Positions 20,976 through 24,725 of a DNA stretch of 45,335 nt are shown here, piece by piece (within the stretch, counting starts at the first letter, position 1; the number at the start of each line of letters is the position of its first letter). The DNA comes from Formosa sp. (GTDB taxonomy: Bacteria > Bacteroidota > Bacteroidia > Flavobacteriales > Flavobacteriaceae). Position numbers and translations under genes: made by a program. The stretch is from NCBI GenBank assembly GCA_002698705.1, contig NZZM01000042.1, forward strand, positions 34,821 through 80,155, written 5' to 3'. The notes under the pieces were generated by a model, which was not told the origin of the DNA, made no database searches, and saw only the letters and a list, made by a program, of their open reading frames with translations.

Positions 20976-22204
20976 TGGCCTCAAAGCTTAAATATTTATC
21001 TTTCATTTTTTTCATTTTTTTGGCCTTAGGCTCGTGGGGAGTTAATGCGCAAAACCAACGCCAACAGGAATTAGAAGGCCGAAGACGGGAATTACAAAAA
21101 GAAATAAAACAAATAACAGCTTTATTATTTGCAAGCAAGAAGGAAAGGAAATCTATAATAAATACGGTTGATGACTTGAGTTATAAAATTAGTGTTAGAA
21201 AAAATTTAATTCGTATAACAAACCAACAAGCGAATTTATTGACCAGAGAAATAAATTTTAATGAAAATAAAATTTTAGATAAACAAAATAAGTTGAAAAT
21301 ATTAAAACAAGATTACGCTGCTATGATCTTAAGATCTTACAAAAGCCGCGATCGCAAAAATAAGCTGATGTTTTTATTATCTTCCTCAAACTTTCAGCAG
21401 GCTTTTAGGCGCTTACAGTATATTAAGCAATATGCAAATTATCAGAAAGATCAGGGAAAGCTTATTAAAGAAGAAACAAAAAAGCTACAATTACTCAATC
21501 AAGATCTCGTAAGTAAAAAAGAAGAAAAGAAAAAAATAATTAATGAAAATCGATTTGCAAAAGAAGCTTTGGATGAAGAGAGAAATACACAAAAAGTTTT
21601 GATAGCGTCAATTCAAAAAGATTTATCAACCTTTTCACTTAAAATTAAAACCAAACAAAAAGAAACCCAAAAATTAAATGAAGAAATCCGAAAGTTAATT
21701 CAAGAAGCAATTGCAGCATCAAATAGGAAGGCAGGAAAATCCGAAGATTTGAACGTATTCTCTCTGACACCAGAACAAAAAGCATTAGCTAAAAATTTCA
21801 CATCTAATAAAGGAAAATTACCTTGGCCAGTAGCCAATGGGATAGTGAAATTGCGCTTTGGGACAAACCCATCACCTATTGACCCAAGTATTAAAATTAG
21901 GAGCAATGGCGTTCGCATTGCAACTAATAAAGGTGAGCCAATAAGAACTGTTTTTGAAGGAGTCGTTCAGGGTATTATGACTCCAAAAAATGGTAACAAT
22001 ACCATTATGATTCGCCACGGCAACTACATTACAGTTTATAAAAACTTGTCTAAGTTTTATGTGTCAAAAGGGGATAAAGTTACAACCAAACAAATTATTG
22101 GAGAGGTTATTACAAATAAAGCAACAGGCGAATCTATTTTAAGCTTTGGGATTTATAAGGATAGCTCTATTCAAAACCCTTCAAGTTGGATTTATAAGCT
22201 ATAA
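20975..22204 (+). CDS. Murein hydrolase activator EnvC-like, coiled coil plus M23 peptidase domain
   Basis: Signal peptide, long coiled coil, LPWPVANGIVKLRFGTNPSP...NNTIMIRHGNYITVYKNLSKFYVSKGDKVTTKQIIGEV. Confidence 0.9.
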   Translation: MASKLKYLSFIFFIFLALGSWGVNAQNQRQQELEGRRRELQKEIKQITALLFASKKERKSIINTVDDLSYKISVRKNLIRITNQQANLLTREINFNENKILDKQNKLKILKQDYAAMILRSYKSRDRKNKLMFLLSSSNFQQAFRRLQYIKQYANYQKDQGKLIKEETKKLQLLNQDLVSKKEEKKKIINENRFAKEALDEERNTQKVLIASIQKDLSTFSLKIKTKQKETQKLNEEIRKLIQEAIAASNRKAGKSEDLNVFSLTPEQKALAKNFTSNKGKLPWPVANGIVKLRFGTNPSPIDPSIKIRSNGVRIATNKGEPIRTVFEGVVQGIMTPKNGNNTIMIRHGNYITVYKNLSKFYVSKGDKVTTKQIIGEVITNKATGESILSFGIYKDSSIQNPSSWIYKL

Positions 22205-22717
22205 TTTATTTACAAAAAGTGCCTTCAGTTCTGTAGCTTGATTTGCTTTCATTTTCCCAGCCAATACTAAACTTAATTGACGTCTTCTTAGAGCTCCATC
22301 AAAACGTTTTATTTCTTCTTCAGTTTCAGGGATAAGCTTAGGAACTTGAATCGGGTTTCTATTTTGATCGACAGCTACAAATGTAAATATCGCTTCATTT
22401 GCTTTTAGTGGAGTGTTAAAATTATTGTCTGTATACCACACATCTAAATAAACTTCCATTGATGTGTTAAATGCACGAGAAACCTTAGCTTCAATTGTTA
22501 CAATACTGCCTAAAGGAATAGTATGGTTAAAGGCGACATGATTTACTGATGCAGTAACAACAACTTTTTCAGAGTGTTTTTGGGCTGCAATACTGGCGGC
22601 ACGGTCCATTCTTGCCAAAAGCTCACCTCCAAATAGAGTATTAATTGAATTCGTTTCACTTGGCAGTACTAAATCTGTTACAACGGTTTTCGAATTAGAG
22701 GGTTTTTTTGAAATCAT
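22199..22717 (-). CDS. Acyl-CoA thioesterase (hotdog fold)
   Basis: NSINTLFGGELLARMDRAASIAAQKHSEKVVVTASVNHVAFNHTIPLGSIVTIEAKVSRAFNTSMEVYLDVW. Confidence 0.92.
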   Translation of the reverse strand: MISKKPSNSKTVVTDLVLPSETNSINTLFGGELLARMDRAASIAAQKHSEKVVVTASVNHVAFNHTIPLGSIVTIEAKVSRAFNTSMEVYLDVWYTDNNFNTPLKANEAIFTFVAVDQNRNPIQVPKLIPETEEEIKRFDGALRRRQLSLVLAGKMKANQATELKALFVNKL

Positions 22718-22778: not shown

Positions 22779-23680
22779 TTAGTTTAAATCCTTCACTAAT
22801 AGCCAGGCCTCCGGATTTTGTTCCTTTTTTATTTTGTAAAGTTTGCGAATGGCCTGTTCGCGTGTAGGGAAACTTTCAAAAACTACTTGATATAAACCAT
22901 AACTATTTTGGCCAATGATATTAGCATTAAAACCTAAGCGTTTTAATTCACGGAGTTTGCGCTCACTATTTTTTTTAACTCTAAAAGCCCCAGCTACGAC
23001 ATGAAAATTTCCCTTATTAATTTTTAAATTTAAAGTTAAAGGTGGTAGCGGTGTACGTACAGCAAATGTAGCTTCTTGAATTTGATTACCTAACAAAACG
23101 TTGGCTTTCTCTTGGGCTATAATATTTTGATCTTCAATATATTGATTATAATTAAAGTTAAATACTCCTGCTAAACTTATTAGAAGAATTCCAACAGCAG
23201 CATATTTAATTAATGACTTTGTAGGATTCTTTTTTGCTCTTTGAAAGTTAATAATTTTCCCCCTTGAAATTTCTGAAGCTAGAAATTCACTAAGACCAAA
23301 AGCATCTGTAAGGTAATTTAGTTTATAACAAGGCTCAAAGATTAAAATCCCATTTTTATTTAGCTGTAAATTTCCAATAGAGTTAAGAACAAAAGTTTGA
23401 TTTTTATTGAGAATTCTTTGCATTTCATTGACTTGCTTAGCTATTTTAGCTAATGCATTTTCATATGAAATTTTCTCGCTTTCAGACACGTGATTGGCTA
23501 AGATTCCATCGTTGGATGTTAGTTGTTCGTTGAAGGATAATCTTTTTTTTGGAGGGTACAACGTTTGGGTCTTGGAATCAATTCTGCAGAAATCTTATGG
23601 CTCAGAAATGCCCCAAAGTTAGGCACAACAACACATTCGTATCGGTACAAAAGAGTATTTATATGATCGCTTAATTTCAT
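22779..23680 (-). pseudogene. HU-CCDC81 and SPOR domain protein, reading frame interrupted by an apparent 1-nt deletion near 23580-23581
   Basis: N-terminal frame (23519..23680) reads MKLSDHINTLLYRYECVVVPNFGAFLSHKISAE then diverges; the C-terminal frame (22779..~23582) reads ..DSKTQTLYPPKKRLSFNEQLTSNDGILANHVSE...SPOR. Offset is exactly one missing base. Confidence 0.8.
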
Positions 23681-23756: not shown

Positions 23757-24725
23757 TTAATATCCGAGTTTTTTTCGAACACGACTAAGAACTTTATTGG
23801 CAACAACAGAAGCTCTAGCAGCGCCAGAATTTAATATTTTTTCAACCTCCTCCGGGTGCGCCATGTAGTAGTTGTATTTTTTGCGCTCATCAATAAATTT
23901 GTCGCAAATAAGCTCAAACAATGCTTGCTTCGCATCTCCATAGCCATAACCACCTGACTCATAATTTTTTTTCATTGCTTCAACGTCTTTATTTGACGCT
24001 ATTAATTCGTAAATAGCAAAGCAGTTACATGTAGACCAATTTTTTGGCATCTCAAGAGAAACGCTATCCGTCTTTATACCCATTATTTGTTTCCTTAGGT
24101 CTTTATCGCCTTGAAAAATATTTATAACATTGTTTTTACTTTTGCTCATTTTATGGCCATCTGTTCCAGGAATTAATTTAGTTTCCTTATGAATTTTTGC
24201 CTCTGGTATTACAAAGGCTTTACCCATTTTTGCATGAAACCTTGAGGCAACATCTCTGGTCATTTCAATATGTTGAAGCTGGTCTTTACCAACAGGGACT
24301 ATATCAGCATCGTACAATAAAATATCGGCAGCCATTAGCATTGGATAACTAAATAAGCCGCCATTAACATCTTCTAAGCGATTAACTTTGTCTTTGAAGC
24401 TGTGAGCTAGTTCTAATCTTGAAAATGGAAAAAAGCAGTTTAAAAACCAAGCGAGTACTGTTACTTGGGGAACATCACTTTGCTTGTAAAAAACCGTTTT
24501 CTTTGTATCCAATCCACAAGCTAGCCATGCAGATGCAGTCGATAAAGAGTTTTGAAAAAGAGTTTTAGCGTCTTTTATTTGTGTAAGTGAGTGCAAATCG
24601 GCAACAAATAAAAAAGAATCATTAGATTGCTTTCTACTCATTTCAATAGCAGGGAGTATTGCCCCTAAAATATTCCCCAAATGAGGAGTACCTGTGCTTT
24701 GTATGCCGGTTAAAACTCTAGCCAT
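23757..24725 (-). CDS. trpS: Tryptophan--tRNA ligase
   Basis: ARVLTGIQSTGTPHLGNILGAI, PVGKDQLQHIEMTRD, GTDGHKMSKSKNNVI. Confidence 0.96.
   Translation of the reverse strand: MARVLTGIQSTGTPHLGNILGAILPAIEMSRKQSNDSFLFVADLHSLTQIKDAKTLFQNSLSTASAWLACGLDTKKTVFYKQSDVPQVTVLAWFLNCFFPFSRLELAHSFKDKVNRLEDVNGGLFSYPMLMAADILLYDADIVPVGKDQLQHIEMTRDVASRFHAKMGKAFVIPEAKIHKETKLIPGTDGHKMSKSKNNVINIFQGDKDLRKQIMGIKTDSVSLEMPKNWSTCNCFAIYELIASNKDVEAMKKNYESGGYGYGDAKQALFELICDKFIDERKKYNYYMAHPEEVEKILNSGAARASVVANKVLSRVRKKLGY

Follow-up and report, generated by a model that had tools for sequence, protein, structure and literature searches.

Does a conserved single-copy envelope gene of this Formosa sp. genome truly carry a frameshift, or does only its recorded sequence lack a base? 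The question arises at positions 22779–23680 (minus strand) of the window, by which we mean the whole analysed stretch of 45,335 nucleotides. There, the given sequence splits the gene into two open reading frames (ORFs). The break is most likely explained by a consensus-sequence error or a mutation of very recent date, and not by a new mechanism.

One gene in two frames

The upstream ORF (23519–23680, minus strand) opens with an ATG at 23680 and has 53 codons before its stop at 23519–23521. It matches positions 3–37 of the HU-CCDC81_bac_1 profile (PF18174, E 2e-12) and then runs into an out-of-frame tail. The downstream ORF (22779–23561, minus strand), with 260 codons counted from a TTG, holds the end of this first HU domain, the second HU-CCDC81 domain (HU-CCDC81_bac_2, full profile, E 1.7e-23), a hydrophobic segment and a C-terminal SPOR domain (E 7e-7, 29.9 bits against a cut-off of 21). 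The initial annotation had named the family HU-CCDC81/SPOR, with the HU-CCDC81 start opened by the ATG, its frame ending at 23519 and SPOR in the downstream frame, and the Pfam scans and ORFs bear it out on each of these.

The break falls within HU-CCDC81_bac_1, which is present but divided, with profile positions 3–37 in the ATG frame and 34–59 in the downstream frame by the HMM scans and the genome search. In the genome profile search, the two pieces abut at about 23580 and both exceed the Pfam cut-off. They are parts of one broken gene, not two genes. The Pfam split and the comparison with relatives put the site, one base shorter than in the relatives examined, at 23577–23584 (minus strand) and the frame change itself at about 23580–23582, in agreement with the position of about 23580–23581 first suggested.

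The gene is an ordinary flavobacterial one, present in a single copy, whose product combines two HU-CCDC81 domains with a hydrophobic segment and SPOR. It is the sole HU-CCDC81_bac_1 match and the sole SPOR match in the genome by profile search at the thresholds used. A PDB search gave no match, and a literature search on HU-CCDC81 found no paper in the library searched. From general knowledge of SPOR domains only, we presume that the product is a membrane protein binding peptidoglycan through SPOR.

The flavobacterial proteins with PF18174, HU-CCDC81_bac_2 (PF18175) and SPOR (PF05036) share with the window gene the same domain order, a similar length, the break aside, and a thioesterase-like gene downstream. 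Compared with them, the window gene is one base shorter in domain 1, hence the two ORFs on record. Its downstream neighbour (22199–22717, minus strand) is acyl-CoA thioesterase-like, resembling YciA but scoring below that model's curated cut-off, and is found near the gene in relatives too. The upstream neighbour is trpS (23757–24725, minus strand), which adjoins the gene in the window and at L005, L007 and L014, whereas about 1.2 kb lies between the two in many congeners (L003, L004, L006 and L008–L011).

The break site in relatives

Of the 40 genomes searched, 38 had a homologue, as did every one of the 10 other genomes of the genus. Reading frames were followed in 33 relatives; whole genomes supplied 29 of these and contig sequences four. 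A single continuous frame, absent from the window copy, runs through the break site in all 33, the 10 congeners included, which leaves the window copy as the exception. Looking for the base in close relatives had been proposed at the outset, and the extra base or the intact frame was found in every relative read. It had also been asked whether relatives start at the downstream frame, and none of the 33 does. Their ORFs begin at the ATG equivalent to 23680, or slightly upstream of it by mechanical start choice.

Restoring one base had been suggested before; this reconstruction was nearly right, and it placed the break correctly. However, the restored motif SAEFD, with Phe, is unlike the homologues. 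Nine of the 10 congeners have an Ile codon at the site and one has Val, followed by D, H, N or Q, in motifs such as SAEID, SAKID and SAEIH. These codons suggest that Phe was probably not the ancestral residue.

Three intact representatives all have full first and second HU domains, and SPOR exceeds the cut-off in two of them. One candidate lesion in a congener (G001), a single TAA, was rejected because its position makes it that gene's own natural stop, two or three residues early.

Probable consensus error, possible recent deletion

The initial annotation had listed assembly error, recent inactivation and tolerated frameshifting, which is the right set; the comparisons shift the weighting within it. 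In our ranking, a consensus error is the most likely cause, followed by a recent mutation or strain allele and then by partial rescue through slippage.

The assembly is a 1.77-Mb draft, 83% complete and 5.5% contaminated, and the window lies in its contig 31. Most of the contig stretches retrieved, the remainder of contig 31 among them, contain single Ns at scattered positions, as though uncertain bases of the consensus had been masked across the draft (G000). The window itself holds no N, apparently because it was cut between Ns; the base directly before it (base 34820 of contig 31, L137) is an N.

For a survey of the draft, 622 kb of it was set against the proteins of a single-contig congener (G005). 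Ortholog-like matches were found for 507 of these proteins at a median identity of 72%, and after inspection three other likely frameshifts remained. In contig C38 (L175), at about 1740–1770, a 649-residue protein similar to that at 127974–129923 of G005 shifts frame at an A9 tract, which makes it the draft's second candidate for a homopolymer indel. In C8 (L146, 8688–9741) and C26 (L164, 7897–8587), frame changes relative to the congener both lie in N-rich stretches. Three more candidates were not accepted as coding lesions, being upstream of a conserved internal start (C21), at the start of an over-extended ORF (C27) or in a divergent match of 23–29% identity (C6).

The other scattered frameshifts in this draft and its many Ns favour a consensus error. 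We lean, by a modest degree, to the recorded sequence being one base short for this reason, in which case the gene in the organism is probably whole. The base would have been dropped from the assembly while still present in the cell, whose gene would be continuous. The draft's incompleteness and contamination are consistent with this, as are the unbroken frames of all the relatives, the near-universal presence of the homologue, the lack of any other HU-CCDC81_bac_1 or SPOR match in the genome, and the coding pattern downstream with no other lesion. On the other hand, the site lies outside any long homopolymer, the window is without N, and four likely frameshifts are few for 622 kb.

Cooley and Wright show that assembly artefacts account for many of the frameshift pseudogenes in public genomes (PMC11017572). 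The present candidate resembles those spurious pseudogenes in that a lone single-base indel interrupts a draft-genome gene that is otherwise conserved. This case is an ordinary one.

A genuine single-base deletion, very recent and either fixed or one strain's allele, is a real but clearly lesser possibility. The gene would be inactivated, or its product would be without most of HU domain 1. The sequence as recorded is in its favour. The window copy also has a long end branch in the gene tree (0.66 versus 0.26–0.27 for the nearest rows), and its identity to the congeners, mostly 55–62%, is slightly under the 66–68% between congeners. However, the branch of the intact G001 copy is 1.29, longer still, so branch length is no sign of decay and is uninformative on relaxed selection. 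A tree of the thioesterase neighbour gave no consistent rate signal.

The downstream frame also counts against a genuine deletion. No additional stop or frameshift and no loss of coding pattern, the marks of a decaying pseudogene, were found across its 260 open codons. The differences from the congeners are about 0.31–0.43, 0.18–0.25 and 0.52–0.63 at codon positions 1, 2 and 3, respectively, which is the pattern of protein-coding sequence with most substitutions at third and least at second positions. Thus, any true inactivation is recent. The near-universal conservation in relatives moreover argues that the gene is useful.

Possible rescue at the A8 run

A real lesion could also be partly rescued by transcriptional slippage or by −1 ribosomal slippage at an A8 run (23543–23550, minus strand), and the resulting protein would be almost full-length, with a short stretch scrambled. 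We regard this as unlikely. The run had been noted before and does exist, but the distance from the break to it (23550–23543) is about 31 nt, not about 40. The ATG frame is open from the lesion to the run and reads it as A_AAA_AAA, so slipping by −1, or an additional A in the transcript, would lead into the downstream frame. The slippery run is thus suitably placed and in the right phase, and the predicted slipped product of about 300 residues compares with 305–312 in three relatives measured. This phase and this length make a rescue possible on paper.

Rescue by transcriptional slippage has been proposed for the frameshifts at poly(A) tracts in Blochmannia, an AT-rich endosymbiont (PMC3017870), and the insertions made during transcription rise with run length (PMC5574713). 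The window resembles Blochmannia in its AT-rich genome, the A run near the lesion and the phase that restores the frame. It differs in that the indel is outside the run, the run has 8 rather than 9 or more residues and nothing is conserved across species. Moreover, one genome-wide survey found no frame restored through transcription errors (PMC5574713), and the evident selection against runs is mostly at 9 nt (PMC1088944).

The run belongs to a conserved PPKKR motif, and six of the 10 intact congeners have A7 at the homologous position, so rescue need not be the reason that it arose. Runs of at least 8 are not rare: the window contains 21 of A or T. When single-base deletions were simulated in the congener genes, a run of at least 8 was met before a stop in 2% and one of at least 7 in 8%, so the coincidence is mild. 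The arrangement is common to no relative, all of those read being intact. More doubtful still is the idea that slippage at the A8 run corrects the frame often enough for this flavobacterium to live with a real frameshift in a conserved envelope gene of which it has a single copy.

A native start at the TTG at 23561, put forward earlier as the source of a truncated protein, or at another downstream position in this species is very improbable and was rejected: the TTG is available, but all 10 congeners have a Phe codon and no start codon there, their frames continue to the ATG homologous to 23680, and the 34 residues ahead of the break are still 65–74% identical to most congeners compared.

A lesion that was both real and rescued would take slippage rescue beyond insect endosymbionts, although nothing here requires that. 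The finding is mainly a caution. Automatic annotation of this draft would give two fragments or a pseudogene, and it could falsely report the loss of the genome's only SPOR match.
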